DNA of 33,651 nucleotides from Pleurocapsales cyanobacterium LEGE 06147 (GTDB lineage Bacteria; Cyanobacteriota; Cyanobacteriia; Cyanobacteriales; Xenococcaceae): the NCBI GenBank assembly GCA_015207585.1, contig JADEWQ010000063.1, positions 1 through 33,651 on the forward strand, written 5' to 3'. Shown piece by piece: positions 5,022-24,593 of the stretch (position 1 is the stretch's first letter; the number at the start of each line of letters is the position of its first letter). The notes under the pieces were generated by a model that ran no database searches, was not told the origin of the DNA, and saw only the letters and a list, made by a program, of their open reading frames with translations. The translations under genes and the position numbers were made by a program.

Positions 5022-5566
5022 CTTCTACAATCAATAAGAGCAAATAGAAGAATATTTAGCAATGTCAAAGTGCATATCGACAGTAGTGCAGTAAAAATAA
5101 ATTCAAGATATTAAGGCTAAAGCCTTTACTAGATATGGGGACGGGAAGAGTTTTTGTTGTTTTTGATTAAAAACTTATTGTTACAAGATATAAAATGTCT
5201 GAAATAAAAATGACAGATCGTTCTTATTCTATAGAAGAAGTGTTGGATGAGAATTTTCTACCATAAAAGCTTCCATTATATTTAAAAGCGATCGCTTTTC
5301 TTGAGTAATTCTCTTTCCAAAAGAAGCGATCGCTTTTTCTTTGCGCTGCAGAAGTCATACCAAATCCGATTCTGAAAACATACTTTTCGTTTGGGAGTTT
5401 TAATTAGGCTAAAAAGCTTCTGCCCAATAACAATTGGCAGTGCTGCTCCGCAATCTGAATGGAACGCAGTTATTAATTGCGAACTGCGAACTGCGAATTG
5501 CGAACTGCGAATTGCCTTTACCCAACTTTTAAATATTGTATTTCAACAGGATTTAGTATCAGCCCC
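5022..5566. other. Gene-poor spacer between convergent aroE and ctaB
   Basis: About 545 bp with no supported gene. It contains a small hairpin AAGGCT-AA-AGCCTT (5113-5126), a 16-bp palindrome AAAAGCGATCGCTTTT (5284-5299), a second HIP1-centred palindrome at 5324-5338 followed by T residues, and the heptamer repeat at 5478-5512. Because aroE and ctaB converge here, these HIP1 palindromes with T-runs could serve as transcript ends, but that is only inference. Very short frames, such as a 23-codon one starting near 5195, have no support. Confidence 0.5.
5478..5512. repeat. Heptanucleotide tandem repeat (TGCGAAY)x5
   Basis: Five uninterrupted units of TGCGAAC or TGCGAAT, followed by a degenerate sixth (TGCCT). 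Short heptamer tandem repeats are a known feature of cyanobacterial intergenic DNA. It lies about 55 bp beyond the ctaB stop codon. Confidence 0.9.
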
Positions 5567-6774: not shown

Positions 6775-7725
6775 CTATAGCGAGCCCACTTTGCGGGTGC
6801 TGCCGCACCGCTTCGCTGCTACTTCGTAGTCGCGCATTGACAAAACTGTAAAAGCAACTAAAACTCCTAGTAAAGTCGCGCCAACTGCTTGATGAGTTAC
6901 GGTCAAGGGTTCGACTTGAAGGTGTAACTTAAACGTTGCTATCCCCAAAATTATTTGCAACACTACTAAGCCAGCAGCCAGATTAGCTAGTTTTCTCAAA
7001 ATTGCAGACAGTGCGGGAGTGCGCCAAGCTAATCCGATTAGGATCGCAGTTGCGATTATCGGAGGAAAAACACCGATGATATGACTATTCATTACCGTGC
7101 ATAGTTGTGAAGCTCCAAAACATTGATGCAAAGCCCAGCGAGACCCCACTAAGCCTCCGAGTAAACTTTGTCCATAGACAAGGAGAGTAGCAGTTAAACC
7201 CACCCAAGCTAAATTACCTGCAGCTCCCGTTCCCTTATAAGGAGTTAGAGCCGTCGCGATGACAATTAAGGTACTGAAAAACAATAAAGCAGTGCCTAAA
7301 TGGGCAGTAACGATATCAAAGCGTAGTAATTCAGTAACTGTCAGTCCACCGAGAATGCCTTGAAACACGATGAGAAACAAAGCAAAACTGGCAGCCCAAG
7401 GGAGCCAATGAGGTAGAGCGCGCCGATACCACCAGGATAGACCAGCTAAAGCGATCGCGCTCAGACCGATTAGGGCAGCATCTAAACGATGAAACCATTC
7501 TAGGAAAACTTGTAGATTCATCTGTTGAGATGGTACCAGTTGACCGTAACACAGCGGCCAATCGGGGCAAGCTAGACCTGCATTCATTACTCGCGTCGCG
7601 CTGCCCACTGCCATCAATAACAGAGTAGCGATCGCCATCTTCCATACCAAGCGACGAATCCAAATTTGCGGATTTGACTCTGTTTGAGGCGTAGCGAACT
7701 GACGTTGAAATACTGAATTTGCCAT
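6775..7725 (-). CDS. ctaA: Heme A synthase (COX15/CtaA family)
   Basis: Oxidises the C8 methyl of heme O to the formyl group of heme A. The 316-residue protein is a multi-helix membrane protein with the family's conserved parts: GSATRVMNAGLACPDWPLCYGQ (cysteines in the first outer loop), WFHRLDAALIGL, DIVTAHLGTALL, ALHQCFGASQLC and VTHQAVGATLLG, giving the four heme-ligand histidines. The extreme C-terminus (about the last 18 residues, AAKRCGSTRKVGSL at the end) is encoded by a small dispersed repeat (6779-6834) rather than by family sequence, so the tail is probably a neutral extension. Oriented divergently from ctaC and upstream of ctaB. Confidence 0.93.
   Translation of the reverse strand: MANSVFQRQFATPQTESNPQIWIRRLVWKMAIATLLLMAVGSATRVMNAGLACPDWPLCYGQLVPSQQMNLQVFLEWFHRLDAALIGLSAIALAGLSWWYRRALPHWLPWAASFALFLIVFQGILGGLTVTELLRFDIVTAHLGTALLFFSTLIVIATALTPYKGTGAAGNLAWVGLTATLLVYGQSLLGGLVGSRWALHQCFGASQLCTVMNSHIIGVFPPIIATAILIGLAWRTPALSAILRKLANLAAGLVVLQIILGIATFKLHLQVEPLTVTHQAVGATLLGVLVAFTVLSMRDYEVAAKRCGSTRKVGSL
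6779..6834. repeat. Small dispersed repeat forming the ctaA 3' end
   Basis: On the minus strand it contains CTACGAAGTAG, GCGAAGC and GTGC-GGCA-GCAC in succession: compact hairpins with GAA or GGCA loops. Positions 6792-6811 are identical over 20 nt to the insert in the amidase relic (1515-1534). Confidence 0.75.
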
Positions 7726-8186
7726 AGCAATAATTGCTGGTATAAAACTTAATCAAACTAGAGCTGCGTATTACTTAAACTCAAATTACTCTTACTTGAG
7801 TATAAATACCACGCTCTATTTATCACTGTAGCGATGTTTTTTAAGGAGCTACACCCTCTTATAATATTCTTCAGATTGATTTAAGAGTTAATTTATAAAA
7901 ATTTATTTCATCATAAAGAAATCCTAAAACAGATAGATTAAGCCTACCAGACATCTTCTAGCGATCCCAAAAAAAAAGTAAAAAACTAGCCTAAACGCTT
8001 CTACTAACTAACTCTTCTGTTGAACTATGTCTTAGGCTAGTACACAGAGACAACTAAATATCGATCCTGCAAACTTTTGTCTTCTTCAAGCCAACAATCG
8101 CTTTAGCCAAGTACAAGTAATAGATTATATAGTGTTGACCTCTCGCCCTATTACCAGTAGTTCAGATCGCAAACCAAGAAAGACCC
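7726..8186. promoter_or_regulatory. Divergent regulatory region ctaA / ctaCDE
   Basis: A 461-bp spacer between two divergent oxidase operons, so it must contain both promoters. It holds a 10-bp inverted repeat (7985-7994 with 8032-8041) followed on the minus strand by T-runs, listed separately. No coding frame is supported. I did not find a recognisable operator. Confidence 0.5.
7972..8041 (-). terminator. Possible terminator or attenuator upstream of ctaA
   Basis: ACTAGCCTAA (7985-7994) and TTAGGCTAGT (8032-8041) are perfectly complementary with a 37-nt loop. Read on the minus strand, the second arm is followed at once by TTTTT and then a further run of T. It would end a minus-strand transcript about 250 nt before the ctaA start codon. 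The long loop makes it weaker than a classical intrinsic terminator. Confidence 0.35.
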
Positions 8187-9182
8187 GTGAATATTCCTAG
8201 TAACATAGTTACCCTAATCGTAGGTATCGTCGTGACCCTACTCAGTCTTTGGTACGGTCAAAATCATGGACTGTTACCCGTTGCTGCTTCTTCTGAAGCA
8301 GTTCAAATCGATGAACTCTTCAACTTCATGATGACCGTTTCTACCGGGTTATTCCTGTTAATTGAAGGAATTTTAATCTACTCGGTAATCAAATTTCGCC
8401 GACCCAAGGGAGATACCACAGATGGTTCCCCAATAGAAGGAAACGTACCTTTAGAAATCCTCTGGACAGCTATTCCTACGGTCATTGTACTTATTCTGGC
8501 TATTTACAGTTTTGAGGTATACAATGCCATGGGAGGACTAGATCCGATGGCTGCCCACGATATGGGTCCCCACACTGTTGCCCGAGCCGAATCTAATTCA
8601 AAAGAAAACTTGATTGCTTTCGATCCCGACCGAAAACAGGTAGCTTTGGGACTAGGTGTTTCGCCAGAAACTAAAGAGGGTGAAAACCAGTTAGTAATTA
8701 ATGTTAATGGCATTCAATATGCCTGGATTTTTACTTATCCAGAGTCAGGAATTGTATCGGGAGACATGCACATTCCCGTCGGTCGCCCCGTAAAATTAAA
8801 TATTACGGCAGGGGATGTATTGCACGCTTTTTGGTTACCAGAATTTCGTCTAAAACAAGACGCTGTTCCGGGTAGAGAAGTGCAATTAACTTTTACACCT
8901 AATCGAGTCGGTCAGTATCCCATCATTTGTGCAGAATTGTGTGGTGCCTATCACGGTGGGATGAAAAGCCAGCTTTACGTACAAACTGAAGAAGAGTACC
9001 AACAGTGGCTACAACAAAACACGCTCGCTCAATCGGATGTCGAAAGTACTTTAGCAGCTAACGCCGCTTCAAGTTCAGATAGTGAATTTTTAGCACCATT
9101 AGCAGCCGAAATAGGCGTTGAAGCAGATACCATAGCTCAGCTACATGCTTTACATCACCATCCCCTCAATGCTGAGTTGTAA
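8187..9182 (+). CDS. ctaC: Cytochrome c oxidase subunit II
   Basis: Carries the CuA centre that accepts electrons from cytochrome c6 or plastocyanin and passes them to subunit I. The 331-residue protein has an N-terminal hydrophobic segment (7-22), two membrane helices (about 44-68 and 88-110), then a cupredoxin domain. CuA ligands are visible: H213 in DVLHAFWLPEF and C248, C252, H256, M259 in CAELCGAYHGGM. The aromatic stretch INGIQYAWIF-type (173-182) is the electron-entry site. The start is GTG at 8187. About 60 residues after the copper site form an acidic, low-complexity tail. First gene of ctaC-ctaD-ctaE. Confidence 0.96.
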   Translation: MNIPSNIVTLIVGIVVTLLSLWYGQNHGLLPVAASSEAVQIDELFNFMMTVSTGLFLLIEGILIYSVIKFRRPKGDTTDGSPIEGNVPLEILWTAIPTVIVLILAIYSFEVYNAMGGLDPMAAHDMGPHTVARAESNSKENLIAFDPDRKQVALGLGVSPETKEGENQLVINVNGIQYAWIFTYPESGIVSGDMHIPVGRPVKLNITAGDVLHAFWLPEFRLKQDAVPGREVQLTFTPNRVGQYPIICAELCGAYHGGMKSQLYVQTEEEYQQWLQQNTLAQSDVESTLAANAASSSDSEFLAPLAAEIGVEADTIAQLHALHHHPLNAEL

Positions 9183-9239
9183 AAGTGACGCTTTGCCGCA
9201 GGCAATTTTAAATATTTGCAATTTTCAATCCAAAATCTC

Positions 9240-10925
9240 ATGAGTACATCAGCAGAAAAAATCGTCACTTCCACCCATGATGGACAAAAAGCGGAACACA
9301 AACAAAGAAAGTGGCAAGACTATTTCACCTTTAATACCGACCACAAAGTAATTGGCATTCAATATCTAGTTACTGCCTTTCTCTTTTATTTTGTTGGCGG
9401 TGCTTTAGCAGAAGTGATGCGCACGGAACTGGCAACTCCCGAACCCGATTTGGTGCAGCCAGAGTTTTATAACCAGATAATGACAATGCACGGGACAATT
9501 ATGTTGTTCCTGTGGATCATTCCTGCTGGGGCGGCTTTTGCCAATTTCCTAATTCCTTTGATGATTGGGGCAGAGGATATGGCATTTCCTCGCCTCAACG
9601 CAGTTGCCTACTGGATGTTTCCCATTGGTGGAATTCTGTTAATGAGCAGCTTTTTTGTAGGGCCCGCTCAAGCAGGTTGGACATCCTATCCACCTTTAAG
9701 TCTGGTTGCTAGCAAGTGGGGACAAGAAATCTGGATCTTGAGCATCCTGATTTTGGGGACATCGACAATTTTGGGGTCGATAAACTTCATTACCACCATT
9801 TTGAAGATGCGCATGCCCGATATGGATATTCACAGCATGCCCCTATTTTGTTGGTCTATGCTGGCAACTTCTGGTTTGATTTTGCTAGGTACGCCAGTTT
9901 TAGCCGCAGCTTTAATTTTGCTTTCGTTTGACTTAATTGCCGGCACGTCCTTCTTTAATCCTGCTGGTGGGGGAGATCCAATCGTTTATCAGCATATGTT
10001 CTGGTTTTACTCTCACCCGGCTGTATATATCATGGTGCTGCCCTTTTTTGGGATAATTTCGGAAGTTTTACCAGTTCATGCTCGTAAACCAATTTTTGGC
10101 TATCGGGCGATCGCTTATTCTAGTCTCGCGATCGCTTTTCTAGGCTTAATTGTCTGGGCACACCACATGTTTACCAGTGGTACACCTGGTTGGTTAAGGA
10201 TGTTTTTTATGGCAACCACGATGGTTATTGCTGTACCTACGGGCATTAAAGTCTTTAGCTGGACTGCGACGATCTGGGGCGGTAAAATTAACCTCAACAG
10301 TGCCATGCTGTTTGGGGTAGGTTTTATCTCTCTCTTTTTGATCGGTGGTTTGAGTGGGATCATGGTTGCCTCCGTACCCTTTGACATTCACGTCCACGAC
10401 ACTTACTTCGTTGTTGCCCACTTTCACTACGTTCTCTTTGGTGGTTCCGTTTTAGCCCTGTTTGCCGGAATATATCATTGGTTCCCGAAAATGACAGGGC
10501 GCATGCTCAATGAAACCTGGGGCAGAATTCATTTTGCTCTCACTTATATTGGTTTTAATCTAACTTTCCTGCCCATGCACCAGTTGGGCATCCAAGGAAT
10601 GAATCGTCGTGTTGCTCTATATGATGCCCAATTCCAATCTGTGAATATGATTTGTACGATTGGGTCATATATTCTGGCGGTTTCTACCCTTCCTTTTGTT
10701 GTTAACGTTCTTTGGAGTGTATTTAAAGGAGAAAAAGCCGGTCGCAATCCCTGGCGTGCTCTAACCTTAGAATGGCAGACTTCTTCCCCACCAGCTATCG
10801 AAAACTTTGAAGAAGAACCCGTTCTTTGGGCAGGTCCTTACGAATATGGTGTCGATACTGAAATGATCGATGAGGATAGCTCGATAGAAGAGATGCTGGC
10901 AGAAGTTAGTGCTGAAGCCAAGTAA
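9240..10925 (+). CDS. ctaD: Cytochrome c oxidase subunit I
   Basis: Catalytic 12-helix subunit with low-spin heme a and the heme a3-CuB centre where oxygen is reduced and protons are pumped. Visible are the heme a histidine in MTMHGTIMLF, the CuB His-Tyr pair in FWFYSHPAVYIMVLPFFG, the two CuB histidines in VWAHHMFTSG, and the heme a3/heme a histidines in HDTYFVVAHFHYVLFGG. The D-channel region ANFLIPLMIGAEDMAFPR is normal. I take ATG at 9240 (MSTSAEKIV, 561 residues) rather than the upstream TTG at 9216. The gene follows ctaC by 57 nt. The tail after the last helix is acidic. Confidence 0.96.
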   Translation: MSTSAEKIVTSTHDGQKAEHKQRKWQDYFTFNTDHKVIGIQYLVTAFLFYFVGGALAEVMRTELATPEPDLVQPEFYNQIMTMHGTIMLFLWIIPAGAAFANFLIPLMIGAEDMAFPRLNAVAYWMFPIGGILLMSSFFVGPAQAGWTSYPPLSLVASKWGQEIWILSILILGTSTILGSINFITTILKMRMPDMDIHSMPLFCWSMLATSGLILLGTPVLAAALILLSFDLIAGTSFFNPAGGGDPIVYQHMFWFYSHPAVYIMVLPFFGIISEVLPVHARKPIFGYRAIAYSSLAIAFLGLIVWAHHMFTSGTPGWLRMFFMATTMVIAVPTGIKVFSWTATIWGGKINLNSAMLFGVGFISLFLIGGLSGIMVASVPFDIHVHDTYFVVAHFHYVLFGGSVLALFAGIYHWFPKMTGRMLNETWGRIHFALTYIGFNLTFLPMHQLGIQGMNRRVALYDAQFQSVNMICTIGSYILAVSTLPFVVNVLWSVFKGEKAGRNPWRALTLEWQTSSPPAIENFEEEPVLWAGPYEYGVDTEMIDEDSSIEEMLAEVSAEAK

Positions 10926-10948
10926 CAGTGAGCAGGTATTAGGTATTA

Positions 10949-10993
10949 GGTGGCAGGGTTGCTGGAATTTGATTCCAGCGCTTGCCTGCCACC
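10949..10993 (+). promoter_or_regulatory. Strong hairpin between ctaD and ctaE
   Basis: Outer arms GGTGGCAGG (10949-10957) and CCTGCCACC (10985-10993) and inner arms GCTGGAAT (10961-10968) and ATTCCAGC (10972-10979) are all perfectly complementary, giving 17 bp with a small internal loop and a 3-nt apex. No T-run follows, so it is not an intrinsic terminator; it may shape mRNA processing or stability. Confidence 0.75.
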
Positions 10994-11084
10994 GCCTTCT
11001 GCGGTTAAATAATAATTCACCTACTACCTAGCATCTAATAACTGGTAACTAATCGCTGAGTAAAACAAACGAGAAACAATCAAT

Positions 11085-11699
11085 ATGCAAAGTTCAGCTT
11101 TAGACGAGTCGAAAGTAACTCTCAACTACCACCATGAGGCAGCAGGTCATCACGGACATCCAGACCACCGCATGTTTGGTGTCATCTTATTCCTAATTGG
11201 CGATAGCATGACCTTTCTTGGGTTTTTTGCTGCCTTTTTGATTTACCGTACCATGATGCCTGTTTGGCCTCCAGAAGGTACGCCCGAATTAGAACTGTTA
11301 GTACCGATAATTAATACAATTGTTCTAGTATCGAGCAGTTTTGTCATGCATCAGGGACAAACAGCGATTAAGCGAAACGATGTATCTGGTTTACGTCTCT
11401 GGTTTGGTATTACTGCCGCGATGGGAGCAGTTTTTCTGTTGGGACAGGGATATGAATACTTTCACTCGGAACTCGGTTTAACAACTAATTTATTTGCTAG
11501 TTGTTTTTATGCCTTAACTGGTTTTCACGGCTTACACGTGACTGTAGGAGTGCTATTGATTTTGTCGGTTTTGTGGCGATCGCGCTCCAAAGAACATTAC
11601 TCTAGTGGCAGTCATTTTGGTGTAGAAGCAGCAGAAATTTATTGGCACTTTGTCGATGTCATCTGGGTTATCCTTTTTATCCTGGTTTATTTGTTGTAG
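11085..11699 (+). CDS. ctaE: Cytochrome c oxidase subunit III
   Basis: Third core subunit of the aa3 oxidase, which stabilises subunit I and assists proton uptake. The 204-residue protein is the five-helix form usual in cyanobacteria. Family stretches include MFGVILFLIGDSMTFLGFFA, GQGYEYFHSELGL, FYALTGFHGLHVTVGV and the final EIYWHFVDVIWVILFILVY, the strongest signature. Several histidines at the N-terminus (NYHHEAAGHHGHPDHR) are common in this family. It is separated from ctaD by 159 nt containing a strong hairpin, and is followed by more hairpins. Confidence 0.95.
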   Translation: MQSSALDESKVTLNYHHEAAGHHGHPDHRMFGVILFLIGDSMTFLGFFAAFLIYRTMMPVWPPEGTPELELLVPIINTIVLVSSSFVMHQGQTAIKRNDVSGLRLWFGITAAMGAVFLLGQGYEYFHSELGLTTNLFASCFYALTGFHGLHVTVGVLLILSVLWRSRSKEHYSSGSHFGVEAAEIYWHFVDVIWVILFILVYLL

Positions 11700-11704
11700 C
11701 TAGT

Positions 11705-11736
11705 GAAAGCAGTGCGCTTTCTGCCTCCAGCGCACT
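11705..11736 (+). promoter_or_regulatory. Competing hairpins after ctaE
   Basis: GAAAGC (11705-11710) can pair with GCTTTC (11716-11721), while AGTGCGC (11711-11717) can pair with GCGCACT (11730-11736). The two stems overlap and exclude each other. The loop of the second includes GCCTCC (11723-11728), complementary to the GGAGGC of the next gene's ribosome site. Confidence 0.4.
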
Positions 11737-11761
11737 CAATTCCACGTTTGGCTTAACTAAT

Positions 11762-11784
11762 AGCCTCCTAAGGAGGCTTTTTTT
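11762..11784 (+). terminator. Intrinsic terminator whose 3' arm is the next gene's Shine-Dalgarno
   Basis: AGCCTCC (11762-11768), loop TAA, GGAGGCT (11772-11778), then T residues to 11784: a textbook intrinsic terminator. The ATG of the debranching enzyme starts at 11785, and AAGGAGG (11770-11776) sits 8 nt before it at ideal Shine-Dalgarno spacing. The same bases can therefore end the ctaCDE transcript or hide the ribosome site. Confidence 0.85.
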
Positions 11785-13866
11785 ATGATGGACATTAAAT
11801 TTGGACGAGAAATTTGTGGCAAACTAGCTACTGCCGAATCGCGGGAATGGCTGGTAACTAATGGTATGGGTGGTTATGCTGCCGGTACTGTAGCGGGACT
11901 GTTAACAAGACGCTATCATGGCTTGCTGATAGCAGCTCTTAAGCCTCCTTTAGGACGGGTTCTATTGTTGAGTAAGCTAGATGAATTCGTCCGATATAAC
12001 GAGCAATCTTCTTTTATCTACGCCAATCGCTGGGCAGATGGAAGTGTTAACCCTAATGGTTACATTAATATCGAAAGCTTTTATCTAGAAGGAACTACGC
12101 CAGTCTGGCATTTTGCCCTAGCTGATGCCTTATTAGAAAAGCGAATTTGGATGCAGTTGGGGGAAAATACTACTTATATTCGCTATACTTTGCGCCGAGG
12201 AAGTAAGCCCTTAGCCTTATTTCTCAAAGCATTGCTCAACTATCGAGACTATCACGGCAATACTAAGGGCGGTCTCGGCGGACTCGTAGAGCGTCGAAGA
12301 CTAGCCGAGGCACTGCGCGATCGCTGGCAGATGCAAATAGATAACCTCGAACGAGGTATTCGTGTCCAAGCTTTTCCTGATGCTGTTCCCTACTATTTAC
12401 TAGCAACTCAAGAAGGTAATCAAGACAATTTATTTTGGCAAACTCATCACACTTGGCACCAAAATTTTGCTTTAGCAGTAGAAACCTATCGCGGTTTAAA
12501 TGACTCTGAAGATCATCTTCACGCTGCTACCTTTAATACAGTTTTACAAGTAGGTGAATCTCTGACTTTAGTTGCCAGCACCAAACCAGATCCTCTACTA
12601 GACAGTCAAGCTGCTTGGCAGGTGCGTTATTATTACGAACAAAAATTGTTAAACCGCTGGCATTCTCGTTCCTCTCTTTCTAGTTCAGTTGCACCAAGTT
12701 GGCTAGAGCAATTGGTTTTGGCTGCCGACCAATTTATTGTCGATCGCCCTTTAGTCGAAGAACCGGAGGGTAAAACGATTATTGCCGGTTATCCCTGGTT
12801 TACCGATTGGGGAAGAGATACGATGATTAGCTTAGGGGGATTAACTATCTCTACCGGTCGTCCGGAAATTGCACGTATTATTCTGCGTACTTTTGGCAAA
12901 TATGTAGATCGAGGCATGTTACCTAACGTTTTTCCCGATGCGGAAGAAGAGCCAAACTATAATACGATAGATGCTACTCTTTGGTATTTTGAGGCAATTC
13001 GTGCTTATTATGCTGTAACTAAAGATCGAGAATTATTAACCGAGTTATTTCCCTTGTTAGCTGAGATAGTTGACTGGCACTGTCGAGGAACTCGCTACCA
13101 GATCCATCTCGACGATGATGGCTTAATCTATGGCGGAGAAAGAGGAGTACAGCTTACTTGGATGGATGCCAAAGTTGATGATTGGGTAGTGACTCCTCGG
13201 ATCGGTAAACCAGTGGAAATAAATGCTTTGTGGTATAATGCGTTGGTTTGTATGGTACAGTTTGCTCGCGCATTAGATAAACCTTCTCAAGCATACGAAC
13301 AGATGGCAGTTAAGACTAGAGAAGGTTTTCAACGATTTTGGAACGAAGCTGCTGGCTACTGCTACGATGTCATCGATACGCCCCAAGGAAACGATCTTTC
13401 TTTGCGTCCCAATCAGATCTTTGCCGTATCTTTACCTATTAGAGAGCAAGAGACATTTGCGCCTTTACTCAATCGAAAGCAACAAAAAAGCGTAGTAGAT
13501 ACGGTCGCTCGATATCTACTGACTTCTCATGGATTGCGTTCTCTTGCTCCCAATCATCCCGATTATCAAGGTCATTACGGTGGCGATCGCCTTCAGCGTG
13601 ATGGTGCCTATCACCAAGGAACTGTCTGGAGTTGGTTAATCGGTCACTTTGTCCAAGCTCATCTAAAAGTTTATCGAGATCCGACTCTAGCTCGCAGTTT
13701 TATCGAGCCGATGGCAAATCATCTACAAGCTTCTTGTGTAGGCAATATCAGCGAAATTTTTGATGGTGATGCTCCCTTTTTGCCAAGGGGATGTTTTGCT
13801 CAAGCTTGGAGTGTAGCGGAAGTTTTACGGGGATGGCTGTTAACCTTAGAAAAGCAAGCTTATTAA
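11785..13866 (+). CDS. Glycogen debranching enzyme, amylo-alpha-1,6-glucosidase (GH133-like)
   Basis: Hydrolyses alpha-1,6 branch points of glycogen, in the cytosol. The 693-residue protein shows an N-terminal domain starting FGREICGKLATAESREWLVTNG, with GGYAAGTVAGLLTRRYHGLL (about 30-49) typical of the bacterial/archaeal GDE N-domain. The C-terminal (alpha/alpha)6 domain has AGYPWFTDWGRDTMISL, GMLPNVFPD, YNTIDATLWYFEA, LTWMDAK, EINALWYNAL and YHQGTVWSWLIGHF. This is not the GlgX type (GH13). Start could be ATG 11785 or ATG 11788; the Shine-Dalgarno at 11770-11776 fits either. Expression may be limited by the overlapping terminator hairpin. The next gene is convergent. Confidence 0.92.
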   Translation: MMDIKFGREICGKLATAESREWLVTNGMGGYAAGTVAGLLTRRYHGLLIAALKPPLGRVLLLSKLDEFVRYNEQSSFIYANRWADGSVNPNGYINIESFYLEGTTPVWHFALADALLEKRIWMQLGENTTYIRYTLRRGSKPLALFLKALLNYRDYHGNTKGGLGGLVERRRLAEALRDRWQMQIDNLERGIRVQAFPDAVPYYLLATQEGNQDNLFWQTHHTWHQNFALAVETYRGLNDSEDHLHAATFNTVLQVGESLTLVASTKPDPLLDSQAAWQVRYYYEQKLLNRWHSRSSLSSSVAPSWLEQLVLAADQFIVDRPLVEEPEGKTIIAGYPWFTDWGRDTMISLGGLTISTGRPEIARIILRTFGKYVDRGMLPNVFPDAEEEPNYNTIDATLWYFEAIRAYYAVTKDRELLTELFPLLAEIVDWHCRGTRYQIHLDDDGLIYGGERGVQLTWMDAKVDDWVVTPRIGKPVEINALWYNALVCMVQFARALDKPSQAYEQMAVKTREGFQRFWNEAAGYCYDVIDTPQGNDLSLRPNQIFAVSLPIREQETFAPLLNRKQQKSVVDTVARYLLTSHGLRSLAPNHPDYQGHYGGDRLQRDGAYHQGTVWSWLIGHFVQAHLKVYRDPTLARSFIEPMANHLQASCVGNISEIFDGDAPFLPRGCFAQAWSVAEVLRGWLLTLEKQAY

Positions 13867-13915
13867 GGATTCGGCACTCGGTTATTGCTTGAAGAGCGAT
13901 TGAGATATTTTTAGC

Positions 13916-13949
13916 AAAAAAAACGCGCTGTTGAAGATCGGACAGCGCG
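13916..13949 (-). terminator. Intrinsic terminator of the proline-rich exported protein gene
   Basis: On the minus strand CGCGCTGT (13949-13942) pairs with ACAGCGCG (13931-13924) around a 10-nt loop, followed by eight T residues (13923-13916). It lies 39 bp beyond the stop codon of the gene at 13988-14518. Confidence 0.9.
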
Positions 13950-13987
13950 AGTTAATAGAGAGGTAAGCAAGTGGAAGGAAAACCGAT

Positions 13988-14518
13988 TTAGAGAGGTAAA
14001 TTAATAGGCAATCTGATAGGAGGAACGACCAAAGTAGGACGAGGGGGAGTAGGTTGAACTGTTTGGGATCTAATAGGCATTGATGCACCCGGTACGATCC
14101 CTTGCGGTACGGGCATTCCAGGTCTGACTCCGGTAGGTGGGATTACTCCTGGAGGTAAAGTCCCCGTTTGGGTGGAAACGTTGCTTTGGGAAAAAGACCC
14201 TTGTGGTGAAATACCCGTAGAAGAAACTGGGGGCGCTCCTAATCCTGGTAACGTGGGAAAACGAATCGGAGAAGGAATGCCGCCAGGAGTACAGGGAAAT
14301 AAGCATAGATTAAAATTATTGCCATTAGCGTTATTGGTGCCAAAAGAGAAATTGTGATTGGGAATTGGTTTGGGAGGACGATTAAACAGAGCGTTAATAG
14401 CTCCAGTAGCTAATTCTAAAACTTGTGCTGAAGCTGGTTGTGGCGTGGAGATGGTGCTGATGCCAACGCTTATAGCAATTACAGATAGAGCGGTTAATTT
14501 TTTGTGAGTTCTTTTCAT
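13988..14518 (-). CDS. Proline-rich exported protein of unknown function
   Basis: A 176-residue protein with a signal peptide (MKRTHKKLTALSVIAISVGI) and an ASA cleavage site near residue 31. After a short segment QVLELATGAINALF, the mature part is rich in Pro, Gly, Ser, Thr and Asn without repeats of fixed length, and has one close cysteine pair (NLCLFPCTPGG). It is probably unstructured and located in the periplasm or cell envelope. A strong Shine-Dalgarno, AGGAGG at 14532-14527, sits 8 nt before the ATG. It has its own terminator, so it may be an independent, well-expressed transcript. I do not recognise a family. Confidence 0.75.
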   Translation of the reverse strand: MKRTHKKLTALSVIAISVGISTISTPQPASAQVLELATGAINALFNRPPKPIPNHNFSFGTNNANGNNFNLCLFPCTPGGIPSPIRFPTLPGLGAPPVSSTGISPQGSFSQSNVSTQTGTLPPGVIPPTGVRPGMPVPQGIVPGASMPIRSQTVQPTPPRPTLVVPPIRLPINLPL

Positions 14519-14618
14519 CTGACTTACCTCCTAGCTTAATGTGAAGATTGTTAAAGTTGTTGTTTGTCTCTTCACTGATTAAGTATGTTGGCAAGAAAGA
14601 ATTATGCATTTACGTTAA

Positions 14619-15587
14619 TTAGAAATCTTGTTTAATTTCAAAAACATAATCCGTATCGTAGGTACGTACGTAAAGCTTATTATCCTTTTGGATCGAGTAT
14701 TCAGGAGCAGTTTTTACATTTATCTGCTGCAAAATCTCTCCTGTAACTTTATCAATTAAATAGAGAAAATCTGGTTCTGCAGTAAAACCATAGCCACAGA
14801 TAATGACATCATCAATCATGACAAAATTGTTGGCATTACACACTAGTGGTTGACTGCGCCACAAAATTTGCTCGGTATTAGTATCGATCGCAGTCAGATA
14901 ACCATTCATTCCATGAGAAGATTTAGCGTAAGTTTGATGGGCATTAGCAACATAGAGAATATTATCTTCTTGCATCGCCCAGGTTAATCTTTGAACGATA
15001 AAAGAAATATCTTCATTTATATAGCTAGGAGATAGAAGATAATTACTAAAATCGTAACCGTAAATAAAGTTATTTTTATTTGGATCGTAGGCAAATAAAT
15101 ATCTACCTTCTCCATAATTTTTCCCATAAATCAGTAAGTAGCGATCGCCATCTCGAATTGGTTTGATTAATACGTTATCTTGAAAATTAGTGGGAATTTG
15201 TGAGGGAAGATTTCCAGAATGGTTTAGAGTAGGATTAGGAACTACATAAATTGGTAGAGATAAATTATTTCGTTCGAACCATGCCTTCTCATCAGTAATT
15301 TGGTTGGGTGTAGCGGTTATAAGATTAAGTTGTACTGAATTTGGTTTAGGACTAATTTTACCGGGTGCATCTTGGCGAAAAGGTGGAACTTCTAGTAACG
15401 CTAATTGAACGCGATCGATAGTTTGGTATGCAGTTTTATTCGTCTGGAGAGAATCTACTGCTGGTAGAAAAGAATTAGCTAAAAGTAACGAGGTACCAAC
15501 AGTTCCAGTAATTAAAGTAATAGTAACGATCGCTCTTACTGCTAATTTATTTACTTGTCGATTATATTTTTCTCGATCGCGATTCAT
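14619..15587 (-). CDS. Membrane-anchored protein with PQQ-like beta-propeller repeats
   Basis: A 322-residue protein with an N-terminal membrane anchor (about 18-38, AIVTITLITGTVGTSLLLAN) and a long extracytoplasmic part. Within it several segments look like propeller blades: YLTAIDTNTEQILWRSQPLV, FLYLIDKVTGEILQQINVKT and NKLYVRTYDTDYVFEI. These alternate strands with a D-x-x-T-G/E turn, as in PQQ-like repeats, but there is no evidence of cofactor binding. It starts 9 nt after the stop of the sugar transporter gene and is the last gene of the gpsA operon. Function unknown; a sensor, scaffold or extracytoplasmic binding partner is possible. Confidence 0.72.
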   Translation of the reverse strand: MNRDREKYNRQVNKLAVRAIVTITLITGTVGTSLLLANSFLPAVDSLQTNKTAYQTIDRVQLALLEVPPFRQDAPGKISPKPNSVQLNLITATPNQITDEKAWFERNNLSLPIYVVPNPTLNHSGNLPSQIPTNFQDNVLIKPIRDGDRYLLIYGKNYGEGRYLFAYDPNKNNFIYGYDFSNYLLSPSYINEDISFIVQRLTWAMQEDNILYVANAHQTYAKSSHGMNGYLTAIDTNTEQILWRSQPLVCNANNFVMIDDVIICGYGFTAEPDFLYLIDKVTGEILQQINVKTAPEYSIQKDNKLYVRTYDTDYVFEIKQDF

Positions 15588-15596
15588 GCTCGATGA

Positions 15597-16997
15597 TTAA
15601 CTTTGATTAGTTAATTTACTTTTTAATAATTCGGGATTGATTTCTCGATACTCTACTCCGTCATCAATACCATAAACAAAGATAGCAGCTATCAAAAGGC
15701 AGAAGCCACCCAATACTACTGCTAGTAAAGAATTTTTATTCAGCAAATTAATCATTATCCATCCCAAGCCAAGAGAACTAACTATTTGGGGTAAGACAAT
15801 AAAAACATTAAAAATTCCCATATAAACCCCCATATTTTTAGGAGGAACATGATTGGCCAAGATAGCATAGGGAATAGAATGAATACCTGCCCAAGCAATA
15901 CCAAAACAAATCATTGGTAGCAAGATTAAATAGCGATCGTTAATCCAAAACAGGCTGACAATTCCCGCTCCCCCAGAAAGCAAACAAAAGAACAGTGTCA
16001 ATTTTCGGCTGGTTATTTCGGTAATTTTGACTATAAAAAAAGAAAAAATCAAACAAACAAAATTATAAAAACTAATACATATACCCGCCCATTCTATACC
16101 TTGCTGATAAAGGGCTGAATTTTGTTTGACAGCTCCAAAGATATGATGAGCTACAGTGGTTGGAAAATAAATTAATATAGCAAATATTCCTAACCAAGTA
16201 AAAAATTGTACCCATACTAATTGCTTTATCCCTTTAGGAATTATTTTATTCAAACAATCAATAATACCTCTATCGCTTAACTTATTTATGTCTATTGGCG
16301 ATCTCGAAGAGATCTGCGAAGCAGACCGCTTTTCTGTTGGTAACTCTTCATCTGCATATTCTTTGGTGGTTGCTACCGTCCAAATAACTGTTGCCAAAAA
16401 AATGATTGCTCCTAAATAAAAAGATAATTTTACCGTTGAAGGAATAGAAACAATACTCTCATCGATCGCTGGAAATCTAAATATATTATTCAACCACCAA
16501 GGAGACAAAGAAGCTATTACTGCACCCAAACCAATAAAAAAGCTTTGTACTGCATAACCCCGAGTTTGTTGTTTCTCTGGCAATAAATCCGCTACTAAAG
16601 CGCGAAAAGGCTGCATACTAATATTAATAGAAATATCTAAAATCCACAGGAGTGCTACAGCCATCCACAAACAAGGAGCATTAGGCATTAAAACTAAAGC
16701 AACCGAACTAATTATTGCTCCCCCAAGGATATAAGGTTTTCTTCTGCCTAAAAAAAACCAAGTGCGATCGCTTAAATAACCAATTAATGGTTGAACGAAT
16801 AAACCACTTACGGGTGCCGCCAACCAAAGAAGGGGAATTTGTTCGGCGTTGGCTCCCAAATACTCGTAAATGGCACTAGTATTTGCCAGTTCTAATGTCC
16901 AGCCATACTGAATGCCAAACATACCAAAATTCATATTCCATAGTCGCCAAAAACTTGCATTTTGTCGCTCTTTTACGCTTAAATTTTGATTACTCAT
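15597..16997 (-). CDS. MFS sugar transporter (GPH / SLC45-like)
   Basis: A 466-residue twelve-helix major facilitator protein. The start FWRLWNMNFGMFGIQYGWTL, the motif GYLSDRTWFFLGRRKPYI between helices 2 and 3, and MQPFRALVADLLP resemble the sucrose/maltose-proton transporter branch (plant SUT, SLC45, bacterial homologues). Sugar transport is therefore likely, but the substrate and direction are inference. The central cytoplasmic loop contains an in-frame small repeat (16297-16329) encoding residues such as KRSASQISSRSP. The start ATG at 16997 is 13 nt after the gpsA stop and the stop is 9 nt before the next gene, so the three genes are probably one operon. Confidence 0.85.
   Translation of the reverse strand: MSNQNLSVKERQNASFWRLWNMNFGMFGIQYGWTLELANTSAIYEYLGANAEQIPLLWLAAPVSGLFVQPLIGYLSDRTWFFLGRRKPYILGGAIISSVALVLMPNAPCLWMAVALLWILDISINISMQPFRALVADLLPEKQQTRGYAVQSFFIGLGAVIASLSPWWLNNIFRFPAIDESIVSIPSTVKLSFYLGAIIFLATVIWTVATTKEYADEELPTEKRSASQISSRSPIDINKLSDRGIIDCLNKIIPKGIKQLVWVQFFTWLGIFAILIYFPTTVAHHIFGAVKQNSALYQQGIEWAGICISFYNFVCLIFSFFIVKITEITSRKLTLFFCLLSGGAGIVSLFWINDRYLILLPMICFGIAWAGIHSIPYAILANHVPPKNMGVYMGIFNVFIVLPQIVSSLGLGWIMINLLNKNSLLAVVLGGFCLLIAAIFVYGIDDGVEYREINPELLKSKLTNQS
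16297..16329. repeat. GAA-loop hairpin repeat inside the sugar transporter gene
   Basis: GATCTC-GAA-GAGATC (16300-16314) overlaps TCTGC-GAA-GCAGA (16313-16325). Two compact perfect hairpins with identical GAA loops lie in tandem. The reading frame is kept, and the insert falls in the poorly conserved central loop. Confidence 0.75.
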
Positions 16998-21042: not shown

Positions 21043-21624
21043 AGTCTTTCCTTTAATTCGCTGCCATTACCAATACATTTTAATTACAGATTTTGTCCGA
21101 TCGCTCGTCTTAACTACTGCGGGAATTACACACCATCCAAGATACGGATTTCCCTACTTACAGAAAAAAGCTAGTAGGGGTAGCTATAACAGTGCAAGTA
21201 AAGGTTGAGACACTTTATCCTGTCCCAAAGTTCAAAGTTCAAAATGAGCTGTTCTCTGTCAAAAGTATTGATATCCTATTCTATACTTCCCTTACCACTT
21301 ACTATCTTTTTCTGCCTAGAGTGACAAGAAAGATAATTTAGAACTGCTAGATTAAATGATTTATAACCTTAGTGCGATGTTATAAATATAGAATTTGATT
21401 ATCTTAGTCATTGTTTTATGAATATAAGGTGTATTCCTTAAAACCTAAAGTAATAAACTATTTATTTAGCAATTTAGCTGGGTTTAATATCTATTTGAAA
21501 TACCATCAAACTTCAAAATTTACTAATGAATTAGTTTGGATATTTGAAAAATTCAAAAATCCAATTATGTTGTGTAAGTAAGATGTTTTTTCTAGAAGGC
21601 AGTATCAATTTTAAGATTGTTTCG
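21043..21624. other. Non-coding upstream region of htpG
   Basis: About 580 bp without a supported gene; it must hold the htpG promoter. I found no CIRCE element (TTAGCACTC-N9-GAGTGCTAA). A short direct repeat AAAGTTC occurs twice near 21226-21239. Confidence 0.45.
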
Positions 21625-21819
21625 ATGAGACTGACAAGTAATTCAATAACGCCTATATCCTATGCTTTGGCTGTAGCCTTAGTTTTAGTACTTCTTCTAT
21701 TTTTGCCGCAAATTTTAATAGCCTTAGCAAGGATATTGTATCATATTTTGCAGGTAGCGATCGCCATATCCGTGTTTATGGGTATTATTGTAGAGTACTA
21801 TAACCCAGGTAAGACATAA
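21625..21819 (+). CDS. Small hydrophobic membrane protein
   Basis: A 64-residue frame from ATG at 21625 reads MRLTSNSITPISYALAVALV and is almost entirely hydrophobic up to residue 57, ending EYYNPGKT. It would form one or two membrane helices (about 13-31 and 34-56). The same frame extends to a TTG at 21544, but the added residues look unlike protein, so ATG is preferred. It has no recognised family. A single gene between htpG and a small disrupted ORF; whether it is expressed is unknown. Confidence 0.5.
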   Translation: MRLTSNSITPISYALAVALVLVLLLFLPQILIALARILYHILQVAIAISVFMGIIVEYYNPGKT

Positions 21820-22114
21820 ATCTAAAACTATTTATAGAGCTTGACAATTCCTATTAAAGTATATTCTTTGTTTGAAAAAAGTCAGAAAAGTAATTTTAAA
21901 GCAATATTTGCTTCGATCGCTTGGTCTAATCCATCGCTCTATCTGATGAGCGATTAATTTATTACGAATAATATTTAATCTATTCGTGTGGACAAAAATA
22001 AATAGACTAACTTATCAACTAACTGAATAATAATCACTGAGTTAGTATTACACGAGTTGATTCCCGTCTCGATAAGTTAGATCGAAATATGAGCAAGCCC
22101 TAGAAGCAATAAAT
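21820..22114. other. AT-rich spacer
   Basis: No gene seen. Near 21925-21955 there are short complementary pieces (GATCGC and GCGAT; ATCGCTC and GAGCGAT) that could form a small hairpin. Confidence 0.4.
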
Positions 22115-22303
22115 ATGCCTAAGCAAAAAACAATCATTAAAATTGTTGTTTGGTTAGCCGCCGAAATTATTTTAAATTTTATTGGTTTGGACGATTTAGC
22201 TGACTATTAGACTATTAGTGAATTTATTTTTGAACATAATTTGCTAACTCAAATAGCGATCGTTCAATTAAAAATATCTAAATTTACTCTAAGCTCACTA
22301 TAG
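22115..22303 (+). pseudogene. Small membrane protein ORF interrupted by an in-frame TAG
   Basis: ATG at 22115 opens MPKQKTIIKIVVWLAAEIIL, reaching a TAG at 22208 after 31 codons (ending LDDLADY). The same frame stays open beyond TAG for 30 codons (TISEFIFEHNLLTQIAIVQL and on) to a second TAG at 22301. The interruption sits in a near-duplication, GACTATTAG followed by ACTATTAG, so removing nine bases (TAGACTATT) would give a continuous small protein of about 58 residues with ADYSEFIFE across the join. I recall similar small cyanobacterial proteins with LDDLADYSEF, but cannot verify it. It could also be a true 31-residue protein. Confidence 0.4.
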
Positions 22304-22576
22304 TTATTATTTTTATTATTTCAATAAAGTATATATTTCAGTTTAGAGTTTGCACAACAATAATAACTTTTGTATTTAATATTTAAATTAGTCTTAGAGT
22401 TAATTAATATTTATTTGTATTTTTTAAAAAAAAGACTTCCGATTAAGAAAGTAAGTGCTTTCTATCTTAGGGATGATTTATATTGACTTTGATTTTTAGA
22501 AAATTAGAAGAGGCAATAACCCAAAAAACTAAATTGCTCTTGGTTAGCTCAAGCATAGTTAGGTGCAAACAAGTAA
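22304..22576. other. Very AT-rich spacer before the DUF1830-like gene
   Basis: No gene seen. Long A/T runs (for example near 22420-22435) and no HIP1 octamer; presumably contains the promoter of the gene at 22577. Confidence 0.4.
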
Positions 22577-22837
22577 ATGACCCAAATATTAGCCTCTAAA
22601 GATTTACCTCCAAACTCTAAGCAGTTATGCTGCTACGTCAATCGAACTAAAACAGTTGCGTTCAGCGAAGTTGCGCCTTCGGTGATTGCCCGTATTAGAG
22701 ATAGATCGGGCAAGTATTGCGAATGGGTTATTTTTCCTCAAGAACGCTTTGGATTTGAAGCTCCTAACAACAGCAACCTAGAGATATATCAAAATACACC
22801 AACTGACATCATTACAGATAGCATTCTTTGTTCTTAA
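22577..22837 (+). CDS. DUF1830-like small protein
   Basis: An 86-residue protein matching the DUF1830 pattern, a cyanobacteria-specific family of unknown function. Diagnostic parts are the N-terminal LCCYVNRT (about 17-24), WVIFPQERFGFEAP in the centre and LEIYQ. The usual family pattern is CxYxN-T, then a Phe-Pro pair and FEAP, all present here. ATG at 22577 is the first start. It lies 61 nt before the sigma factor gene start on the same strand, so the two might be co-transcribed. Confidence 0.7.
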   Translation: MTQILASKDLPPNSKQLCCYVNRTKTVAFSEVAPSVIARIRDRSGKYCEWVIFPQERFGFEAPNNSNLEIYQNTPTDIITDSILCS

Positions 22838-22898
22838 TTAAAGTTAACAGAAAACATTATTGCGGATAGTGAATATAGGGAGAAAAAATCGGTTAAAT

Positions 22899-23774
22899 AT
22901 GTCAAATAACATTGAATCTTATCTCCGGGAAATTGGACGGACTCCTCTTTTAAGTGCTGAGCAAGAAGTTAAATTAGCCAATCAAGTGCAGTCTATGTTG
23001 CATTTGCTCGACAAAGAAAAACCAACTTCAGAGGAGAAACAGATTATCAAACGAGGACAATATGCCAAACAAGAAATGACAAAGGCAAATTTACGTTTGG
23101 TAGTCTCCATAGCCAAGAAATATCAGAATCGGGGTTTGTCCCTACTAGACTTAATTCAAGAAGGTAGCTTGGGTTTAATTCGGGCAATTGAGAAATTTGA
23201 CCCGACCAAAGGTTATAAATTCTCTACTTATGCTTATTGGTGGATTAGACAAGCCGTGACAAGAGCGATCGCCAATCAAGGACGTACCATTCGTCTGCCC
23301 ATTCACATAACTCAACATCTTAATAAGATTAAAAAGGCTACCCGTCAATTATCTCAAGAGTTAGGCAGACAGCCGACGGAAGAAGAATTAGCAGAAAGAC
23401 TCGACCTCGAACTCAATAAGCTGAGAACTATCCGTCAGGCATTGCGTAAAACTAAGCTCAGAAGCCTAAACGTTAAACTAGAGGATAATCAAACTGAATT
23501 AGAACAAATGCTGGCAGCAGACTCTCCTTCTCCTTCGGAGTTAGCCGTCCAAGGAGAGTTACGCACACAAATTCACAGTTTGTTGGAGTGTTTATCACCT
23601 CGACAAAGAGATGTAATTGCTTTACGCTTTGGTTTAAAAAATGGTCGGCCAATGACCTATGAAGAAATTGGCGCTCGATGTGGTATTAGTCGAGAACGAG
23701 TAAGGCAAATTAAAAATAGGGCGATGAGAACTTTGAAAAAGCAAGCTATCGATCTTCAAGAGATAGCTGGATAA
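22899..23774 (+). CDS. Group 2-type sigma-70 factor (RpoD/SigA family)
   Basis: A 291-residue sigma factor directing RNA polymerase to promoters. Region 1.2 is [13 protein letters not shown], region 2 contains [20 protein letters not shown] and the promoter-melting [14 protein letters not shown], region 3 has [17 protein letters not shown], and region 4 has [15 protein letters not shown] with the -35-binding helix [21 protein letters not shown]. It lacks the long region 1.1 of a primary sigma, so it is an alternative group 2 type, usually linked in cyanobacteria to stress, dark or nutrient responses. I take ATG at 22899 over TTG at 22860. Which named Sig it equals cannot be told. Confidence 0.92.
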
Positions 23775-23833: not shown

Positions 23834-23975
23834 GAGTGAAAACCTCTTTTCTTCTCACTTTTGACCGAGGCAAACCGATAGTTATTTGCAGTAAAAGAGA
23901 AACAAGTTAACTAAACACAACAAAAGTAATTAACTTTTAGTTACATTTTTGAGCGAAATTGGAGGGTAAAAATTG

Positions 23976-24593
23976 ATGAAAGTCCCCGCAGAAATCAGCT
24001 ATCGAGAAGTCGAAAAGACCGAAGCACTTGACTCCCTAATTCACGAAAAGTTGGCAAAACTGGAAAAATTCTGCGACCACATCAGCAGTTGCCACGTAGC
24101 TATTGAAAAAATACACGATCGCCCTAAAACTGGTTCTCCCTATCGAGTGCGCCTCGATATTACAGTACCACCAGGACACGAAATTGCAGCGGTGAGCAAT
24201 CCAGACGAGGGAAATCAATACGAGCCTCTTGAGGCTGTCATTCGGGATGCCTTTGAAGCAGCACGCCGTCAACTTGTAAAACTCAACGAAAAACAACACG
24301 ATCGAGTTAAAGTCCACCCACAACAGGAAATGAAAGCGGTAGTCACTAAGTTATTTCCCGAGCAAGGATATGGCTTTTTAAAAACTACTGATACCGGTCG
24401 CGAGATTTACTTTCAGCGCAATAGCGTTGCCAATGACGACTTCGATCGCATAGAAATAGGTACGGGGGTACAGTATTCTGAAATAGAAGGAGAAATGGGA
24501 CCACAAGCAACAACAGTGCAAATTGTGGATAAACCAGGTCCTGGAGCTGCTACAGAAGATGAAGGAACGATCGAACCTCCCTTAGGTTGGTAA
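23976..24593 (+). CDS. HPF/RaiA ribosome-associated protein with C-terminal cold-shock domain
   Basis: A 205-residue two-domain protein. Residues 1-105 are an S30AE domain (MKVPAEISYREVEK, LEKFCDHISSCHVAIEK, YRVRLDITVPPGHEIAA, FEAARRQLVKL), as in factors that block the ribosomal A and P sites in resting cells. Residues 115-180 form a cold-shock-like OB fold with RNP1-like QGYGFLKT and RNP2-like EIYFQRNSV. It differs from the long HPF (LrtA) of cyanobacteria, whose C-terminal domain is for dimerisation. Shine-Dalgarno GGAGG at 23961-23965 precedes ATG at 23976 by 10 nt (a TTG at 23973 is also possible). The location after the sigma factor fits a stress role. Confidence 0.88.
   Translation: MKVPAEISYREVEKTEALDSLIHEKLAKLEKFCDHISSCHVAIEKIHDRPKTGSPYRVRLDITVPPGHEIAAVSNPDEGNQYEPLEAVIRDAFEAARRQLVKLNEKQHDRVKVHPQQEMKAVVTKLFPEQGYGFLKTTDTGREIYFQRNSVANDDFDRIEIGTGVQYSEIEGEMGPQATTVQIVDKPGPGAATEDEGTIEPPLGW

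Follow-up and report, generated by a model that had tools for sequence, protein, structure and literature searches.

A terminator-like hairpin after ctaCDE overlaps a Shine-Dalgarno-like sequence before a glycogen debranching enzyme-type gene in Pleurocapsales cyanobacterium LEGE 06147

The stretch of DNA analysed here (the window; 33,651 nucleotides of Pleurocapsales cyanobacterium LEGE 06147) contains the ctaCDE operon (8187-11699), whose last gene, ctaE (11085-11699, + strand; Pfam COX3, 1.3e-34), encodes cytochrome c oxidase subunit III and lies downstream of the COX2 and COX1 genes. On the same strand, ctaE is followed by a glycogen debranching enzyme-type gene (11785-13866), which starts with ATGATG and encodes a protein of 693 amino acids with GDE_N (1.1e-67) and GDE_C (1.1e-125) domains. 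Between the two genes, the sequence 11762-11784 reads AGCCTCC-TAA-GGAGGCT plus TTTTTT and forms an intrinsic terminator-like hairpin on the + strand, with a 7-bp perfect stem (arms 11762-11768 and 11772-11778), a 3-base loop and a U-tract, the run of seven T's (11778-11784) abutting the ATG at 11785. The 3' arm of this stem includes the GGAGG (11772-11776) of a Shine-Dalgarno (SD)-like AAGGAGG (11770-11776), and two overlapping alternative hairpins lie further upstream (11705-11736, + strand). The positions that an earlier note on this DNA gave for the stem, the T-run, an upstream GCCTCC and both alternative hairpins are all correct. As to other features of the window, a short tandem array of TGCGAAC (5475-5515, ~5.4 copies) lies between the shikimate dehydrogenase and UbiA genes; a region of ~1.8 kb (21043-22859) without any listed frame of at least 100 aa is flanked by an HSP90-like gene and a sigma factor gene; and a 206-aa frame combining S30AE (ribosome hibernation type) and cold-shock domains (23973-24593, + strand) comes right after the gene for a sigma-70-family factor (22860-23774).

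The 11762-11784 element has what is expected of an intrinsic terminator, namely a stable G+C-rich stem-loop with a U-tract directly after it, and the stem and U-tract folded in isolation give -10.8 kcal/mol. A loose scan of 7000-16000 on both strands returned 12 terminator-like sites, and because shuffled sequences yield 6.8 sites on average, such a scan tells little by itself; only one of the 12, the 11762 hairpin, has more than three G-C pairs. For a strict class of hairpins (perfect stem of 7 or longer, 5 or more G-C pairs, and T at six or more of seven positions), the window contains one on the + strand and none on the - strand, and 60 dinucleotide shuffles of its + strand contain none; a relaxed class (stem 6, 4 G-C, 5 T) occurred six times across the same shuffles. 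Furthermore, 20 of 26 family relatives carry a terminator-like hairpin in the 160 bases that follow ctaE (21/27 with the genome itself, as a raw count). The six relatives without one are G005, G007, G012, G013, G014, where just 56 bases of sequence are left, and G025. The hairpins of the relatives differ in sequence, and among the best hairpins listed only that of the window has GGAGG in the 3' arm. As would be expected of a terminator, its position after ctaE appears to be conserved by function and not by sequence. Since most family relatives have such a hairpin at that place, 11762-11784 is best read as an ordinary intrinsic terminator of ctaCDE flush against the next gene, which we consider probable and which agrees with the claim of the earlier note that it ends ctaCDE.

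The same stem recurs in other cyanobacteria. Among 386 genomes of the phylum, 20 contain the pattern GCCTCC-N3-8-GGAGGC-TTTT-N0-10-ATG, which has 24 matches in total and no listed match for the control. All 24 were read; one pair is a single site seen from either strand, and another pair is one element shared by two genomes. Of the 23 places outside the window, seventeen fall no more than 60 bases behind a frame of 80 aa or longer on the same strand, and at these 23 the start codons within 16 bases of the stem open no frame longer than 61 aa. Judged by these matches, the GCCTCC/GGAGGC stem is a common form of terminator in the phylum, and only in the window is it joined to a long gene in the 386-genome sample. 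A looser pattern (CTCC..GGAG NN TTTT..ATG) matched in 69 of 120 genomes of the order, where the reversed control also matches many. Thirty loci, a part of the places, were read; five of these (L238, L242, L252, L256, and L257) open frames longer than 140 aa, as pattern matches only, and the frame of L242 runs upstream beyond the ATG. One of them (L238, genome G436) has CTCC/GGAG and TTTT directly before a frame with an N-terminus that we read as NusG-like, and two others (L256 and L257, genomes G451 and G037) share one CTCC/GGAG plus TTTT pattern before a lipoprotein-like frame. An SD core opposite CTCC at real gene starts thus does occur elsewhere in the order.

Within its own genome, the stem is not a repeated element, as GCCTCC-N3-12-GGAGGC is found at four sites (8 strand-wise matches against 24 in the reversed control); two of the three other sites lie inside reading frames and one in what we read as rRNA-like sequence. 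Neither is there an SD-masking stem class in this genome, with CCTCC-N3-8-GGAGG-N4-13-ATG found at 5 places against 15 for the reversed control, four of the five lying inside reading frames and one of them antisense (whole genome). A further AGCCTCCT at 11942-11949 (+ strand), inside the debranching gene, falls on KPPL codons and is probably mere coding sequence.

GGAGG is most likely present as the complement of the CCTCC arm. It could well be a used SD, since it lies 8 bases ahead of the ATG and the gene starts of this genome are enriched in GGAGG. A sample made up of the window, whose inclusion biases the rate, and 57 further stretches (58 sequences in all), amounting to 1,007,891 bases of 6.23 Mb and carrying 590 mechanically predicted genes, has GGAGG at -4..-18 in 15 genes against one at -34..-48, and a 4-base SD core at these positions in 117 and 28 genes, respectively. 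SDs are used in this genome, yet in a minority of genes, and SD-less starts are the rule, because just 117 of 590 genes have the 4-base core and 15 have GGAGG. Genes without an SD depend on weak structure around the start, according to two published accounts (PMC6847405; PMC3121790) with which this minority use of SDs agrees. The start region of the debranching gene (-30..+21) ranks 25th of 590 by stability, and an SD core is fully paired in 12 of 102 genes having one. The sample contains 26 strict terminators; GGAGG lies in an arm of only one, that of the window, and three end 16 bases or less from a candidate start, namely that of the window and two at non-first start codons. The spacing of GGAGG, described earlier as perfect, is 8 bases if translation starts at 11785. 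It is 11 bases for the second ATG (11788), which matches most homologue starts when compared by eye (MDIKFGRE against M-x-[LI]-x-FGRE), and the description thus depends on the ATG chosen.

The earlier note had proposed that read-through transcripts from the oxidase operon hide the SD-like sequence, and the prediction is in line with this. RNAs with a 3' end at 11830 and starts from 11500 to 11768 and later were folded at equilibrium. GGAGG is unpaired with a probability of 0.003 (~99.7% paired) in RNAs from 11500, 11600, 11700, 11740, 11757, and 11762, and in RNAs starting at or before 11762 its partner is the 11762-11768 arm (0.93-0.997). RNA from 11764 still has GGAGG masked (0.012 unpaired, equilibrium prediction). 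In RNAs from 11766 or later it is partly freed (0.39-0.70), with means of 0.63-0.70 for starts at or after 11768. The SD-like sequence is therefore paired in predicted read-through RNA. To read the stem as an RNA thermometer seems unlikely, because it is perfect, G+C-rich, and has -10.8 kcal/mol.

The dependence of GGAGG on the RNA start (0.003 unpaired from 11762 or earlier vs 0.63-0.70 from 11768 or later), along with the strong duplex of the GGAGG stretch with an assumed 16S tail sequence (-11.1 kcal/mol), would suit a selected insulator. Such a stem would end cta transcripts and mask the SD in leak-through RNA, while RNA of a separate promoter, starting within or after the 5' arm, would have a free SD, and the debranching enzyme would thereby be decoupled from the oxidase operon. 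We regard both the insulator and the decoupling as unlikely. The only TAnnnT hexamers within 11700-11784 are TAGCCT at 11761, with 3/6 consensus matches and the -35 left out of the score, and TATGAT at 11784, from which transcription would start inside the gene, and neither is convincing; moreover, the arrangement is not conserved among the relatives examined. A promoter-like scan found no + strand site starting between 11014 and 14937, and its total of 19 sites against 18.7 in shuffles makes it weak evidence in either direction. As no convincing promoter is seen between ctaE and the debranching gene, all expression of the latter may have to pass through the hairpin, and if so the overlap would have real consequences. 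It is mainly because no promoter of the debranching gene is recognised that the overlap is not to be dismissed altogether. Selection on it within its own lineage is possible. A lineage-specific double lock, in which the stem terminates the oxidase operon, silences translation of leak-through RNA, and lets the enzyme be made only from RNA starting inside the stem, is quite improbable. If true, a terminator would here act as a translation gate that depends on the start site, a simple means of preventing read-through RNA from expressing the gene that follows.

Two mutually exclusive hairpins upstream of the stem, together with an extra GCCTCC (11723-11728) able in principle to pair with GGAGGC, had led to the proposal of an RNA switch coupling respiration and glycogen use, whose alternative leader structures would respond to a signal by exposing or covering the SD or by preventing termination. 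The hairpins do exist in the folds of 91- and 131-base leaders, one having the arms GAAAGC (11705-11710) and GCTTTC (11716-11721) and the other AGTGCGC (11711-11717) and GCGCACT (11730-11736), and the 91-base leader is more stable than its shuffles (z -2.90), which is not so for the 131-base leader (z -0.90). The 91-base fold chooses the hairpin with GCCTCC in its loop, and the 131-base fold the other one. However, the predicted equilibrium pairing of this GCCTCC with GGAGG is only 0.00004-0.00012 in RNAs from 11500, 11600, and 11700, so that the hairpins at 11705-11736 have no bearing on the SD in equilibrium predictions. As the named competitor for an alternative structure that would compete with the terminator or free the SD, GCCTCC thus pairs negligibly (~1e-4 in equilibrium prediction), contrary to what had been proposed. 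No Rfam family matches the window at gathering score, and a permissive search of 11600-11900 gave seven matches, all well below gathering score (best E 0.045). A dual riboswitch class was reportedly described by Barrick and Breaker in 2007. With the hairpin-SD overlap also missing in the relatives examined, neither conservation nor known families nor predicted competition supports a true RNA switch, which we consider very unlikely.

Conservation of the overlap was assessed in relatives at family level and beyond, a comparison among genomes of other genera; named members of the family include Xenococcus, Pleurocapsa, and Hyella. In all 26 family relatives, which are mostly drafts and include one match of only 73 residues (G016), the best match to ctaE and that to the debranching gene are on different contigs or at least 0.9 Mb apart, the latter being the case in the five relatives with both on one contig (G001, G008, G013, G015, and G020). 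A set of 104 debranching-gene starts was assembled from 108 loci (30 from a genome search and 78 of 80 named) less four without a usable start; L078 and L106 were excluded for too little upstream sequence, and ten named loci duplicate counted genomes, which leaves ~94 distinct starts. Of all 104, only the start in the window has a same-strand COX3 motif in the 900 bases before it, with five loci having less than 900 bases upstream of the match, where a farther ctaE would be missed. A 4-base SD core at -20..-5 is absent in 26 of 29 relatives; G008 and G001 have GAGG, and G041 (L028, of another family) has GGAGG before ATGATG, with all 4 scored bases paired and no T-run. The core is present in 30 of the 104 starts and fully paired in the predicted fold in seven: the window, G041, and five non-cyanobacterial records (L061, L062, L064, L066, and L112), of which L112, a Clostridia MAG, has a fully paired GGAGG and no T-run. 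By eye, a T-run follows the fully paired core only in the window among these seven. The overlap before the debranching gene, whose presence in related genomes had been named as a check, is therefore not conserved among the relatives examined (104 starts, none other of the same genus), and these relatives lack the ctaE neighbourhood as well. Among the genomes compared, this is an outcome that the earlier note itself had named as speaking against its proposal. A protein tree of 30 rows (midpoint root, for drawing) places the enzyme in a 22-row group (support 100/99) made up of 21 rows from its own family and G049 from outside, and the family rows G001 and G008 group with other families. The tree agrees with the gene being a resident one, and what would fit best is that a resident gene moved beside the terminator, or the terminator beside the gene.

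Literature searches returned nothing on this locus. Like intrinsic (Rho-independent) terminators at operon ends, the hairpin has a G+C-rich perfect stem, a short loop, a U-tract, and a place after the last gene; unlike the usual case, the next gene starts at the end of the U-tract, and the 3' arm is at the same time SD-like. Premature terminators of rimP leaders lie 4-130 bases from the gene start and may encompass the ribosome-binding site, and are widespread and have a conserved GGGc...gCCC stem in the leader of their own operon (PMC2965389). Both have a terminator near a gene start, whereas the stem in the window is CCTCC/GGAGG, is not conserved, and comes after another operon; it is not a rimP leader, the stem being AGCCTCC/GGAGGCT before a GDE gene and not GGGc...gCCC before rimP. 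The SAM-II metZ and metA leaders of S. meliloti are riboswitches with a ligand-binding domain and either a terminator or SD masking (PMC9373788). They resemble the window in that termination and SD masking bear on a downstream gene, and differ from it in their ligand-binding domain, as neither an aptamer match nor an effective alternative structure was found in the window.

From the computed features (hairpin, U-tract, overlap, predicted sequestration, and non-conservation in the genomes examined), we propose, as a reading that we hold to be probable as a whole, that the debranching-enzyme gene came to adjoin the ctaCDE terminator in this lineage, so that the U-tract would meet the start codon, with the 3' arm at the SD position. 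Most cta transcripts would end at the 11762-11784 hairpin, and the few passing it would carry a masked GGAGG. Translation of such read-through RNA may be weak and SD-free, from the single-stranded U7-AUGAUG; alternatively, the debranching gene may be transcribed from an unrecognised promoter. Signal-dependent switching would play no part.

In summary, close packing of genes can make a 3' terminator resemble a regulatory leader. Because GGAGGC is natural as the 3' arm of a terminator, overlaps of this kind need a conservation test before they are labelled as switches.
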